DNA of 7,755 nt from Candidatus Eiseniibacteriota bacterium (lineage in GTDB: Bacteria; JAFGKV01), in assembly GCA_025453925.1 (NCBI GenBank), contig JALOPK010000153.1:1-7755 (forward strand). The letters are read 5' to 3'. This document shows positions 337-7,755 of this stretch, one piece after another (positions within the stretch are counted from its first letter, which is position 1; every line of letters starts with the position of its first letter). Below the pieces are notes generated by a model. It saw only the letters and a list, made by a program, of their open reading frames with translations. It was not told the DNA's origin and did no database searches. The position numbers and the translations under genes were made by a program.

Positions 337-1209
337 CTAGCTCAGGACGTGCTCGGTGATCAGTTCCTCGACGAGAGCGGATATCCCTGCCTGCGTCGGC
401 TCGACCCTCTTGACCTCCCGGGGAGAGATGACAACGCTGGCCACCCTCTTCACCCAGGTGGGCGACCCCGCCATTCCGCATCTGTTGGGCTCCGCGCCGA
501 TCATGTCAACCCCCCACTCCTCGATGAGTAACCCCTTGTCTCCCAGCGCGCTGGTCTCCAGGTAGTCCTCCGTGGAGGCCATCAACTCGGTCTGGGTCCG
601 CGCTTTCTTGTAGGTCATGATGCGGCGCACGCTGGGAGGTCGCGGGCGATTGGCCGTGGAAACGATGGTAAGGAGGACGGGAAGCGTCGAGCGGACGATG
701 CGGGTTCCCCGATCCGTGGTGCGGGACACCACGATCGTTCCCTCGCCGAGCTCGACCACGCGGTCCACATAGGTCACTTGGGGGATTCCCAGCTTCTCGG
801 CGATCTGGGGGCCAACCTGGGCGGTATCGCCATCGATCGCCTGCCGTCCGCACAGCACGATATCAGGAGTACCCAGCGTGGCGACGGCCCGCGCCAACGC
901 ATAGGATGTCGCCAGCGTGTCGGCTCCGGCAAAGAGCCGGTGGGTGAGCAGGATCACGCGATCGGCTCCGCGGTACAACGCATCGCGCAGCAGTTCAGCC
1001 GCCCCCGGGGGGCCCATGCTGACCACGGTGATGTGCCCACCGTGCTGGTCGCGCAGACAAAGCGCCATCTCCAGGGCGTTGAGATCCTCCGGGTTGAAGA
1101 TGGCGGGGAGGGCGCCTCGGTTGACGGTACCGTCCGGTTTCATCGCCTCCCCGGTGATATTGGCGGTGTCCGGCACTTGTTTCGCAAGCACGACTATCCG
1201 AAGCGACAT
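337..1209 (-). CDS. etfB: Electron transfer flavoprotein beta subunit, long form with bifurcating-type motifs
   Basis: This is the 290-residue partner of EtfA. It opens with MSLRIVVLAKQVPDT, the classic EtfB beginning, followed by IFNPEDLNALEMAL at 37-50. The nucleotide-binding signature is GRQAIDGDTAQVGPQ at 121-135. Human-type EtfB has a DDD-NQT version of this motif and binds AMP, whereas the DGDTAQVGP form is the one I associate with clostridial and Acidaminococcus bifurcating ETFs, where this site holds a second FAD. A beta-signature-like stretch ends in STLPVLLTIV near 174-183. The C-terminal part contains RCGMAGSPTWVKRV at 243-256, again reminiscent of the long or bifurcating branch. 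At 290 residues it is longer than the roughly 250-264 of common EtfB. I chose the ATG at 1209 over an in-frame ATG at 1257, because the 1209 start has an AGGAG site and directly precedes the conserved KQVPDT strand, while the longer version would overlap the upstream gene. Family identity is certain; bifurcation is inferred. Confidence 0.95.
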   Translation of the reverse strand: MSLRIVVLAKQVPDTANITGEAMKPDGTVNRGALPAIFNPEDLNALEMALCLRDQHGGHITVVSMGPPGAAELLRDALYRGADRVILLTHRLFAGADTLATSYALARAVATLGTPDIVLCGRQAIDGDTAQVGPQIAEKLGIPQVTYVDRVVELGEGTIVVSRTTDRGTRIVRSTLPVLLTIVSTANRPRPPSVRRIMTYKKARTQTELMASTEDYLETSALGDKGLLIEEWGVDMIGAEPNRCGMAGSPTWVKRVASVVISPREVKRVEPTQAGISALVEELITEHVLS

Positions 1210-1217
1210 CGAGCATT

Positions 1218-1223
1218 CTCCTG
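1218..1223 (-). promoter_or_regulatory. Shine-Dalgarno site of etfB
   Basis: The minus strand reads CAGGAG, eight bases before the ATG at 1209. It fills most of the 14-bp gap after the FG-GAP gene's TAA stop. It decides the start, arguing against the ATG at 1257 inside the upstream gene. Confidence 0.85.
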
Positions 1224-2942
1224 TTAATTGGCTTCTTGCGTTGATGCGATTGTCCAACGGACGCCGGTGGCGAAGTCGAACTCACCGACGCGCGGGGAAC
1301 GCATGAGCTCCTGATCGGCAGCATTGACCGCCATGACCAGATAACACCAATTCACCGCTGGGTCACAGACACCATTGATCGTGCTCCAGGTCGACACGTT
1401 TGGTCTGAGAACCGCGACTCTGTGCAGGAAATCGGGGGCCTGCCCGGGCGCGAAATGTGGGTGGTCGGGCGCGCCAAACACCCAGTATGCGCCAGCGCCG
1501 GGGTAAGGAGTCCACCCCAGAGTGAGCACCCCGGCCTGGAGAGACACCCTCAGCTGCATCGGCACGAAAGACCCTCCAGACAGGCAATACCCGGAGGCGA
1601 GGCTTCCGTAGAGACCCTGCGTGCCGGCAAGGACCTCGGCCAGCTCATCACCATCGACATCGGGCATGGAATCGACGAAGTAGAGGCGGCGCCCGGCGGC
1701 GAAGGTGCCGAGCACCGCCCCGTCGGTTCCCCGCACGACGTACACCTTCGTGTCGAACGACCCTGCCACCACGTCTTGGCGACCATCGCCGTCAAGGTCG
1801 TCAATCGCCGCGACAGTCCACACGTCGCCGCCGTTGACGGTCCCGGTGGGCGTGCTCCACAGGGTCGCCCCATCGCTCCCGTTGAGGCACAGTATGGCAT
1901 TTTCCCACCATCCGATAGCCACCTCCGGGACGCCGTCGCCGTTCTGATCCTCCAGCGGCGATAGTTTCATGATCGAGTCACCGACGTTCCGCGTCCACAG
2001 GGGGCCACCATCAACTCCCGAACAGCAACGCACCATCCCGGTGGACGAACCCGCCAGCACTTCGGGGATGCTGTCGCCGTTCAGATCAGGCATCGCCGCC
2101 ACAGTGCGTACCACGCCTCCCATGTGGACGCTCCAGATCTCGCGAGATCCAGGCCAGGAGGCGGCGCCGTGCAGGCAGAACACGCGATCATCCTCGTAGT
2201 TCGCGCCGTTCCCCGCCGCCACGTCAGGGATGTTGTCGCCATCCACGTCGCCCACCACCGCCACGGCCATGAAACCATCGTCCGCTCCAAACGACCACAC
2301 AATCGAGGCTGCGCCCGCTGAGGCGCCATCCACGCAGAATATCGAGTTGGCATCGGCTCCGACAGCCGCGAGGGCCTCCGGAACTCCGTCATTGGTGATG
2401 TCGACGAACGGAGCCACCTGATAGACCCAGCCGGACGGAGGAACGTCATACGTGTCCAGAACCCAGAGGGAATCGCCGGTGACTCCCGACCGGGCATAGA
2501 AGGACCGCCCACCCCACGCGGTCCCGTAGAGCACGTCGGGAATGTCATCGGCATTCATGTCCGCCGCCGTCGCCAGGCACCCCGGTCCGTACCCTCCTCC
2601 GCCCGAGATGCCCTGCTGGGAGTCCACCGACCACAGCACGGTTGGCGTCCCCTGGCTGCTCCCCGCCACACAGACCAAGTCGTCGAAGTCGTACCCCGCG
2701 TCATACACGGTGAAGACCACGTCGGGTATGCCGTCCGCGTCGACATCCCCAACGGATCGGATGCAGTTCACGTCACCGTTGTCCTCGGGCGCGGTGAACT
2801 CCCAGATCGCACTTCGGGATTGGCCCGGCTGCAGCGAGGCCGTGAGGTTCTCCGATGCGCGATGCCGCAGTACCGCACGGTCCAGGTCGGCCGCCCCGGT
2901 GACGGCCGACAGCAGCATCATGCAGAGAACCGGGGTACGCAC
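1224..2942 (-). CDS. Secreted FG-GAP/VCBS-repeat beta-propeller protein with FN3-like C-terminal domain
   Basis: A 572-residue exported protein of unknown specific role. The first 18 residues (MRTPVLCMMLLSAVTGAA) look like a short Sec signal peptide cleaved near A18. The body holds eight calcium-loop motifs of DxDxDG type, beginning at about residues 66, 128, 181, 232, 286, 332, 382 and 428; most continue as IPDV or VPEV. Spacing of 46-62 residues fits one loop per blade of a roughly eight-bladed propeller. Between loops are LW...G and CLNGSDG-like strands resembling PQQ-type propeller repeats. The last loop (DVDGDELAE) is degenerate. Residues about 462-557 form an FN3-like domain (LTLGWTPYPGAGAYWVFG) with a cysteine pair at 526 and 533, and end near RVGEFDF, a style I associate with surface proteins of FCB-type bacteria. 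The start is a GTG with a well-placed ribosome binding site. Such proteins usually bind ligands or build the cell surface, but no enzyme motif is visible. The stop is 14 bp before etfB, suggesting shared transcription. Confidence 0.9.
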   Translation of the reverse strand: MRTPVLCMMLLSAVTGAADLDRAVLRHRASENLTASLQPGQSRSAIWEFTAPEDNGDVNCIRSVGDVDADGIPDVVFTVYDAGYDFDDLVCVAGSSQGTPTVLWSVDSQQGISGGGGYGPGCLATAADMNADDIPDVLYGTAWGGRSFYARSGVTGDSLWVLDTYDVPPSGWVYQVAPFVDITNDGVPEALAAVGADANSIFCVDGASAGAASIVWSFGADDGFMAVAVVGDVDGDNIPDVAAGNGANYEDDRVFCLHGAASWPGSREIWSVHMGGVVRTVAAMPDLNGDSIPEVLAGSSTGMVRCCSGVDGGPLWTRNVGDSIMKLSPLEDQNGDGVPEVAIGWWENAILCLNGSDGATLWSTPTGTVNGGDVWTVAAIDDLDGDGRQDVVAGSFDTKVYVVRGTDGAVLGTFAAGRRLYFVDSMPDVDGDELAEVLAGTQGLYGSLASGYCLSGGSFVPMQLRVSLQAGVLTLGWTPYPGAGAYWVFGAPDHPHFAPGQAPDFLHRVAVLRPNVSTWSTINGVCDPAVNWCYLVMAVNAADQELMRSPRVGEFDFATGVRWTIASTQEAN

Positions 2943-5042: not shown

Positions 5043-7755
5043 TCAGAACTCGGCCCCCAGCGACCACAACGAACGCCATGGCCCGGAACTGGTGACGAGA
5101 TCGGTCCTCCTGGCAAGATCCCACTTGAGGACGAAAATGCCCAGATTGAGTCGCGCACCCAGGCCATAGGATGCCCGCAGGTCCTTTGTCGCGGGCAGCC
5201 CGGTCTTCTCATCCTTGGTGAAGAACGAAACGCCGGCACCCTCCCACGCGCTTCCGCCGTCCATGAACACGCATCCCCGGATGTCTCTGATGTCCAGTGG
5301 CAGCGGGAATCCCAGCCACAGCCGTTGAACGAGCGGGAAACGGAACTCTGCGTTGGCCAGGAACGCGCGTGTCCCAGAAAGCGATGCCGAGTCGTAGCCT
5401 CGAATGCTCTGTGAGCCACCCAGGCTGAAGACTTGGGGAGTTTCTCCGTTGCTGATGCCGAACACCCCCCGGATGGCGAAGAGGTAGTCCCTGGACACGT
5501 TCAGGTACTTCCGGAGGTCGGCTACTCCGGTGCGAAACCTGAGGTCCCCCGCGGCAAGAGAGATCTCCATGCGGGTGCGGTGGCCGGAGAGCGGCCCCGT
5601 GTACCCCCAGATGGCATTGTCCGTCACCCAGGCAAGCGAAGGCTCGGCGTAGTAGAAAGCCTCGTCGGTCACCTGGTAGAGGTAGTCCGGGTCCCAAATC
5701 GTGCGGAGGTAGGTCCGCTGTTGGATCGAGAGCAGCGCCAGGTTGAGTTCGACCCGTGAGAAACGTGACAAGGGCCAGAGCAGGGTCAGTTCGCCGCCTC
5801 GGTACACCTCGCTCCGGTACTCCTCGGCATCGGGCGCGGCGAACAAGTAGTCGTTCCGGTACTGGTAGAGGGCCGCCCCCCAGTTCAGTCGATGAGAGAG
5901 GTTGGTGTACCCCAGCAGCAGATCGGAATCCGTGAGGGAGCCATAGAGCGCCGCCCCGATGGTGATGGTATGGTTGCCGAGGATGTCGCTGAGCGAAACG
6001 TAGGATTGGCCGTAGAGGCCCAGGCTCTGCGCATAGGTCGCGCCCCCGGCCAGGTAGTCGGGAGAGAACTTCACCTTGTACCGCGCGATGGCGAAGGTGG
6101 TGGTGTCCATGGCATCGACAACCAAGGCGGGCTGGACGGAGTCCTCGGGTGCCGGCTCGATCCACTCTGTGACCCGTTGCGCCGGCGAGTCAATGGCGAA
6201 CACGTTCCAGCTTCCGCCCTCGAAGGCGGAAAACGCGAGGCGATCGGCGTTCTGCGCCCAGGTGAGGCATGGGCTTGACTCCGTGAGTCCACTCACTCCC
6301 GTGAAGACGTTGGTCACTTTCCCTACCCGCAACGAGTCCAGATCCCAAAGGTAGACGTTCGGGATGCCGTCCGCGTCCGAGACGAATCCGAGGTATCTCC
6401 CATCATGGGAGAATGAGGGGTCGATGTTCTTTCCCGCCAGCCGCGGCAGTACCACCACGGAGGTATCCGCCAGCGTCATGATGCCGATGCCCCAGTCGGC
6501 GATCACCATGTCCTCGAAGTTTGTACGGGGTGATCGGTCGGTGCCGAAGGCCAGTCTCGACCCATCCGGCGACCACGCCGGGTCACGTTCCGCAAAACGA
6601 TCTTCGGTGAGAGGCGTCAATACCTTTGAGGCGATGTCGTACACGAAAAGGTCTGACTGCCCTCCATGGAAGCCCACGAACGCGAGTCGCGCCCCATCGG
6701 GGCTGAAGGTCGGGCCCTGTATCCCGTCCAGATCGGGAAACACCCGGTCGACAATCTCCCCGGACTGGGCATCGAGCAGATAGATCCCTTCGTTCCCGCC
6801 CGATTTGACCGAGACCGCCAGCGTGCCAGCATCTGGTGACCACCCGACGCTGGTGGAGAGGAATCGGAGCGATTCGAACGTGCCCGATCGTTCTCCCCGG
6901 GCGAGCCGCCTCGTTTTCCCGTCCTCCGACCGCACGTAGAGGTCGATGAAGAGGTTCTCGTCGGAGATGAAGGCCAGCCGGTCTCCAAACGGACTGAGCG
7001 CAGGGGAGATGTTATAGGCAGCGTGCGACTTCGGGCCGCCGGCCAGGAGTGTCCCCGTTTCGGCAGGAGCCTCCCGCCCCTCCAATTGCGGCAAGTAGGT
7101 TCGCCGAACATGGAGGTGCCACTTCCGGGAGAGATCATCCACCGACATCCCCAACGTGCGTTCGACCCCTTTGTCGAACGGAGTCTGGTTCATGAGCCTG
7201 GTCCAGAGTTCGCCGACCTTCTCCTGTCCATATCTCTCGGCGATGAAAGCCATTACACTCTGGCCAAAGCGGTAGACCCTGATGTCTCCCACATTGGCGA
7301 GAGTCGGAAGGTCCACCAGGTAGCCCGACAGGGCGGCGTCGCGTAGCCACATCTCCGTGTTCGGATCGACTCGTCCGATGCTGTAGTACTCCGCCATCCC
7401 TTCAATAACCCAGAGGGGGGGAGTGATCACCTGGCTGCCGACGAGGCTCTTGCCGCTTCCCAGCAGGCGGTCGATCTGGAATGCATGGACGAGTTCGTGC
7501 TTCAACACGTGATCGAGTTCCGCGTACGACCCCGTGAATGGGAGAAACACCCGGCGCTTAATCAACTCGGTGACCCCGCCGGTACCCTCCGAAATCAGTG
7601 AGGGTGTGATGTTGGTCTCGGCGAAGTGTCCGTGGGACGCGTAGAGCAGAAGTGGTATCGGGTTCTCAACCTCGTATCCGAACAGCTCCGACAGTTCCGC
7701 GTAGTGCTGCTCCGCCATCCGGGCTGCATCGAGCGCCGCACGCCGTTGTGCGCCA
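5043..7755 (-). CDS. Zinc-metallopeptidase/PD40-propeller/Omp85-barrel fusion, 5' end outside window
   Basis: The reading frame is open to the window edge, so the N-terminus and any signal peptide are missing; numbering here starts at the methionine at 7718, which has 12 in-frame codons before it. Residues about 1-210 form a peptidase-MA-like (gluzincin) domain: HELVH at 74-78 supplies two zinc-ligand histidines and the catalytic Glu, and E106 in WVIEGMAEYYS is the likely third ligand. Residues about 230-515 hold six PD40/TolB-like blades, with SPxGxRLAF-type motifs near 242, 293, 338, 382, 436 and 487. From about 545 to 891 comes a strand-rich region ending in a Bac_surface_Ag/Omp85 barrel, with GGSQSIRGYDSASLSG at 767-782 matching the RGY loop-6 signature and a terminal phenylalanine typical of outer-membrane barrels. 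The protein is probably anchored in the outer membrane with its protease and propeller attached; which face they occupy is not shown. Substrate is unknown. Similar predicted proteins occur in Gemmatimonadetes and Bacteroidetes-like genomes, to my recollection. Confidence 0.88.
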   Translation of the reverse strand, partial: GAQRRAALDAARMAEQHYAELSELFGYEVENPIPLLLYASHGHFAETNITPSLISEGTGGVTELIKRRVFLPFTGSYAELDHVLKHELVHAFQIDRLLGSGKSLVGSQVITPPLWVIEGMAEYYSIGRVDPNTEMWLRDAALSGYLVDLPTLANVGDIRVYRFGQSVMAFIAERYGQEKVGELWTRLMNQTPFDKGVERTLGMSVDDLSRKWHLHVRRTYLPQLEGREAPAETGTLLAGGPKSHAAYNISPALSPFGDRLAFISDENLFIDLYVRSEDGKTRRLARGERSGTFESLRFLSTSVGWSPDAGTLAVSVKSGGNEGIYLLDAQSGEIVDRVFPDLDGIQGPTFSPDGARLAFVGFHGGQSDLFVYDIASKVLTPLTEDRFAERDPAWSPDGSRLAFGTDRSPRTNFEDMVIADWGIGIMTLADTSVVVLPRLAGKNIDPSFSHDGRYLGFVSDADGIPNVYLWDLDSLRVGKVTNVFTGVSGLTESSPCLTWAQNADRLAFSAFEGGSWNVFAIDSPAQRVTEWIEPAPEDSVQPALVVDAMDTTTFAIARYKVKFSPDYLAGGATYAQSLGLYGQSYVSLSDILGNHTITIGAALYGSLTDSDLLLGYTNLSHRLNWGAALYQYRNDYLFAAPDAEEYRSEVYRGGELTLLWPLSRFSRVELNLALLSIQQRTYLRTIWDPDYLYQVTDEAFYYAEPSLAWVTDNAIWGYTGPLSGHRTRMEISLAAGDLRFRTGVADLRKYLNVSRDYLFAIRGVFGISNGETPQVFSLGGSQSIRGYDSASLSGTRAFLANAEFRFPLVQRLWLGFPLPLDIRDIRGCVFMDGGSAWEGAGVSFFTKDEKTGLPATKDLRASYGLGARLNLGIFVLKWDLARRTDLVTSSGPWRSLWSLGAEF

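Follow-up and report, generated by a model that had tools for sequence, protein, structure and literature searches.

A stretch of 7,755 nucleotides from a Candidatus Eiseniibacteriota bacterium, which will be referred to as the window, encodes a single polypeptide that joins a gluzincin-type metallopeptidase domain, a PD40/TolB-like β-propeller and an Omp85 outer-membrane barrel, and the gene is an ordinary, contig-end-truncated member of a widespread conserved family. An earlier note made from the letters of the window had described a protease, a propeller and a barrel in one polypeptide, and Pfam, the predicted structure and fold matches all agree with this description. The observation was correct but understated, since the fusion belongs to a family found and conserved far beyond this contig.

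The fusion gene lies on the minus strand (5043..7754), where 903 codons are open without interruption between the contig edge and the stop at 5043, in agreement with the single frame of more than 890 codons that had been claimed. The window is one whole contig of a fragmented assembly and its right-hand end coincides with the 5′ end of the gene; as the frame runs off this end, the beginning of the gene is missing. Residues are numbered over the 903-residue frame, whereas the earlier note counted from an internal ATG, so that 12 has to be added to its numbers (H74, H78 and E106 correspond to H86, H90 and E118). The closest complete orthologues are 78% and 67% identical to the window protein and are located on contigs recorded as Candidatus Fermentibacteria. 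Compared to the closest of them, approximately 50 residues including the signal peptide are missing from the window gene; what the complete orthologues possess in addition is a signal peptide and a conserved start, 'QYFGQNKVQY' or 'YFGQNKVQY', and nothing else. A hydrophobic stretch resembling an export signal precedes the FGxNK motif in 86 out of 87 relatives. A frameshift or a chance fusion was ruled out, as the same three parts are present in one frame in orthologues and distant relatives, and chance is excluded because the H, E, H and E of the zinc site are kept in all members of a 93-protein alignment.

The metallopeptidase domain comprises residues 1-230 (7065..7754, minus strand), with about 30 mature N-terminal residues cut off in the window, and was recognised by the Pfam families Peptidase_MA_2 and BSP, a profile match to collagenases and the fold match of an orthologue. 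In the window frame, the BSP peptidase match reached 24.8 bits (cut-off 23.8), and Peptidase_MA_2 (PF13485), whose cut-off is 32.4, scored 28.3 bits in one run and 32.4 bits in another, where the match was listed as exceeding the cut-off. Several relatives scored clearly above this cut-off, and 48 of the 49 family domains matched at E <= 0.01. The orthologue with 78% identity supplied the complete domain for a separate model, built with an alignment of 49 sequences (pLDDT 86.8, pTM 0.86). This model matched microbial collagenase with Z 17.9 and 3.8 Å over 234 residues; further matches were lugdulysin, an M30 peptidase (Z 16.3), and numerous aminopeptidases of family M1. When the family profile was compared with Vibrio-type collagenases, HExxH, WxxEGxAEY and Y(K/R)xG aligned with the same elements (E 0.0002).

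The predicted zinc site is formed by the HELVH motif (7485..7499, minus strand), in which H86 and H90 would be zinc ligands and E87 the catalytic Glu, and by the PLWVIEG motif (7398..7418, minus strand), which contains the putative third ligand E118. Y161 (7272..7274, minus strand) aligns with the Tyr in the 'IYRWG' segment of collagenases. H86, E87, H90, P113, W115, E118, G119 and Y161 are invariant in all 93 aligned proteins, the window protein included. Most of these proteins were found with patterns located in the N-terminal segment outside the active site, which was therefore no selection criterion for the aligned set. The zinc ligands, previously judged to be intact, are thus the same throughout the alignment, and this conservation rules out a degenerate site. 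With HExxH, a downstream Glu and a predicted peptidase fold, the domain is by sequence and model a gluzincin of the Peptidase MA clan, the fold and the alignment to collagenases indicating the probable geometry of the metal site. Because both the architecture and the zinc-site residues are conserved far beyond the window, these sequences are most naturally read as encoding an active protease.

The second part is a six-bladed PD40/TolB-like β-propeller (residues 240-528; 6171..7037, minus strand), which is evident from Pfam (PD40, 72.5 bits in the window frame), the match to TolB, the model and the blade signatures. The six SPDG-type blades noticed earlier were located at residues 254, 306, 351, 395, 449 and 500, and the model shows a propeller fold. 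TolB is the best sequence relative of known structure and shares this fold (Z 27.7, 2.3 Å over 243 residues) at 20-24% identity; TolB, however, is soluble in the periplasm and has an N-terminal domain of its own, whereas the propeller of the window protein is fused to a barrel.

The third part, residues 564-903 (5046..6065, minus strand), is a 16-strand Omp85 β-barrel according to Pfam (46.9 bits in the window frame, cut-off 24), the model and the fold match to BamA. The AlphaFold model of the full frame, built from 18 family members, has a mean pLDDT of 83.9 and a pTM of 0.79 and shows a helical N-terminal part followed by the propeller at approximately 240-528. Sixteen long strands in residues 564-900 form the C-terminal barrel that had been anticipated, and this barrel matches that of BamA with Z 27.4 and 3.9 Å over 311 residues. 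SIRGY (residues 783-787; 5394..5408, minus strand) represents the (V/I)RG(F/Y)-type motif of Omp85 loop 6, and FMDGG (5253..5267, minus strand), containing D832, the FxDxG strand motif; as described in the earlier note, the protein ends in Phe, and an aromatic last residue is found in 87 of the 93 aligned proteins. Of the 93, 89 keep R785, while G786 and D832 are each conserved in 92. Judged from the alignment, the conservation of R785 and D832 suggests a role for the barrel beyond that of a passive anchor.

In HMM searches, neither the window frame nor the full-length orthologue matched POTRA. The reported absence of POTRA domains from the visible part therefore extends to the complete protein, and a POTRA hidden in the missing 5′ part was ruled out on the full-length orthologue. 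Two related genomes, G001 and G002, encode separate BamA proteins with POTRA matches of 164-177 bits. Replacement of BamA by the fusion was thus ruled out, and as these genomes possess a canonical POTRA-bearing BamA as well, the fusion is an addition to it. M48 peptidases are also present in the related genomes, so that no gap in the machinery requires the fusion.

A survey of the conservation of the three-part fusion revealed a widespread and conserved family. One scan of a species-level genome collection, built on a 7-row alignment with patterns in the N-terminal segment, detected at least 487 relatives, mostly in phyla of the FCB group. The best 80 of these at least 487 relatives are on records labelled Fermentibacteria, Gemmatimonadetes, Zixibacteria, KSB1, Calditrichota, Latescibacterota, Eisenbacteria, Neomarinimicrobiota, WOR-3, TA06 and others. 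Among 60 whole genomes, the same fusion was found in relatives from other bacterial families, and all three genomes of the window's phylum contain two copies, one orthologue of the window gene and one paralogue. In the 93-protein alignment, the lowest identity to the window is 33% for the protease, 23% for the propeller and 25% for the barrel (medians 39%, 33% and 34%, respectively), so that the protease is under no weaker constraint than the barrel. In candidate division TA06 SM23_40 (L082:5968-8894), two overlapping frames of 640 and 385 codons together encode the fusion, which reflects either an error in sequencing or a natural break between propeller and barrel.

Relatives lacking a barrel were also observed. 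A protein of 633 residues encoded on the Salinibacter ruber plasmid pSR116 (L159:3824-5725; product name 'basic secretory protein-like protein') shares 37% identity with window residues 2-516 and contains PD40 repeats; its BSP peptidase match is weak (21.7 bits, below the cut-off), and no Omp85 match was obtained in it. Membrane tethering is therefore not essential to every relative. The gene following this one is serine carboxypeptidase-like. A second class of approximately 1000 residues combines an HExxH peptidase with a PD40 propeller (L148:1019-3967, L149:1737-4772, L150:1317-4547 and L157:1857-4856), and in these several genomes no Omp85 match was found at the C-terminus. As the same pair occurs in proteins without a barrel, peptidase and propeller form a unit that is employed in more than one setting.

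Among known systems, the WD40-Omp85 subfamily is the closest in architecture. This subfamily was defined in 2014 by Heinz and Lithgow as propeller-Omp85 proteins without POTRA and was proposed to resemble a fusion of BamA and BamB (PMC4104836). The window family shares the N-terminal TolB-like propeller, the C-terminal Omp85 barrel and the absence of POTRA; in the main text of PMC4104836, however, the propeller is described alone, with no mention of an HExxH protease ahead of it. In the open-licence literature, no protease-propeller-Omp85 fusion was found described beyond the WD40-Omp85 proteins as that main text presents them. Having a propeller before the barrel and no POTRA, the family is apparently an undescribed variant of the WD40-Omp85 kind as characterised by its published description. 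The 'Metallo' subfamily described in the same text likewise fuses a putative metalloenzyme to an Omp85 barrel and was assigned a proposed periplasmic quality-control role, but its enzyme domain is PF00149 and not an HExxH protease. The term metalloprotease is used for this subfamily in the main text of PMC4104836, while Pfam names PF00149 calcineurin-like phosphoesterase. PlpD and the patatin-Omp85 proteins share with the window family an enzyme fused to an Omp85 barrel; they carry a patatin-like lipase and one POTRA, whereas the window family carries a protease and a propeller and no POTRA. No patatin domain was detected in the window frame with Pfam up to E = 1. The M9 collagenases ColG, ColH and VhaC have the gluzincin fold, HExxH plus E and the following Tyr in common with the family protease domain at approximately 12-14% identity, but they are secreted and have no barrel. 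BepA is an M48 peptidase. It is likewise a zinc protease acting beside an Omp85 barrel, but a separate M48 protein; no M48 peptidase domain was found in the window frame with Pfam up to E = 1, and the protease domain resembles M9/M1 gluzincins rather than M48, so that the comparison with BepA is one of analogy.

We propose, at about even confidence, that the fusion is an outer-membrane-tethered periplasmic protease that serves envelope proteins in their maturation or quality control. In the most likely arrangement, protease and propeller would be located in the periplasm beneath the barrel, an assignment based on the precedent of PlpD, whose enzyme was shown to remain in the periplasm (PMC11116518), and on general Omp85 topology, since the Omp85 N-terminal domains characterised to date are periplasmic. 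The TolB-like propeller would most likely bind a partner or a segment of the substrate, and the gluzincin domain would most likely cut outer-membrane or surface-bound proteins that pass near the barrel, either for their maturation or for quality control. A bolder version of this proposal, that the family constitutes a widespread, previously undescribed class in which one polypeptide unites recognition by the propeller, proteolysis by the gluzincin and a functional Omp85 gate, coupling insertion or export to cleavage at a single site, is possible but doubtful.

The retained RG and FxD motifs of Omp85, together with the likening of WD40-Omp85 to a BamA-BamB fusion in the main text of PMC4104836, might also point to an assembly or translocation factor lacking POTRA, whose gluzincin domain would act mainly as a substrate-binding chaperone and only secondarily in cleavage, a dual role like that of BepA. 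We consider this unlikely, as a domain that does nothing but bind would have no need of a catalytic Glu and metal ligands that are invariant in 93 of 93 proteins, and as canonical BamA is present in addition. Exposure of the protease at the cell surface, with the barrel passing it outwards in the manner of an autotransporter to yield a surface-bound or shed digestive enzyme, would accord with the secreted collagenases among the nearest solved enzymes and with the original proposal, reported in PMC11116518, that PlpD secretes its enzyme; this reading is quite improbable, however, because PlpD was re-measured as periplasmic (PMC11116518), like the characterised N-terminal domains of other Omp85 proteins. 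Moreover, a BamA-like barrel would seem to offer no obvious channel for two folded domains. A receptor-like uptake device, whose barrel admits or binds peptides that the protease trims for nutrition, is highly improbable: it would fit the resemblance in fold to the M1 aminopeptidases and the M9 collagenases and the two copies per genome in the window's phylum, but no recurring peptide-uptake genes adjoin the fusion and no Omp85 barrel is known to serve as a nutrient channel.

Only a few fusions of an enzyme with Omp85 exist and they have barely been studied, and according to the PlpD paper all previously studied Omp85 proteins are assembly or translocation factors (PMC11116518). The preservation of the zinc-site residues across many phyla suggests that the protease-propeller-barrel proteins are likely active and physiologically important in the outer-membrane biology of the FCB group. 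The family makes it possible to test whether Omp85 proteins are able to process their own substrates.

The genes adjoining the fusion in the window encode a TrkH K+ transporter, an FG-GAP repeat protein and electron transfer flavoprotein (ETF) subunits. The FG-GAP protein (572 aa; 1224-2942, minus strand) lies between TrkH and the ETF subunits (1-318 and 337-1257, minus strand), one of which is cut by the contig end; copies of it with 58-68% identity are present in both related genomes. The NCBIfam relatives of the ETF subunits include acryloyl-CoA reductase ETF subunits. Comparison with the same-genus and same-family genomes revealed no conserved operon around the window gene. In the same-family genome the order of TrkH and FG-GAP is retained, whereas in the same-genus genome the surroundings of the orthologue contain no window neighbour, the FG-GAP and ETF genes instead being close to the paralogue, a few kb downstream of it (L051, G001:C25, 8211-18293). 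The orthologous and paralogous loci thus seem to be rearranged in this genome.

In other phyla, envelope genes recur beside the fusion, largely in a phylum-specific manner and absent around the window gene, and they therefore lend weak support to an envelope role. Among the best 80 of the at least 487 loci, a calcineurin-like phosphoesterase gene is located upstream on the opposite strand in 16 and a MurA-like (EPSP-synthase family) gene upstream in eight. A SPOR-domain protein is encoded nearby in seven loci of the Gemmatimonadota type, and TPR/YfiO-like proteins also recur. In ten of the 80 loci (L093, L095, L102, L103, L108, L112, L115, L117, L119 and L128), an MlaE permease gene follows at most approximately 110 bases downstream of the fusion, an adjacency that hints at a link to outer-membrane lipid maintenance in those phyla.
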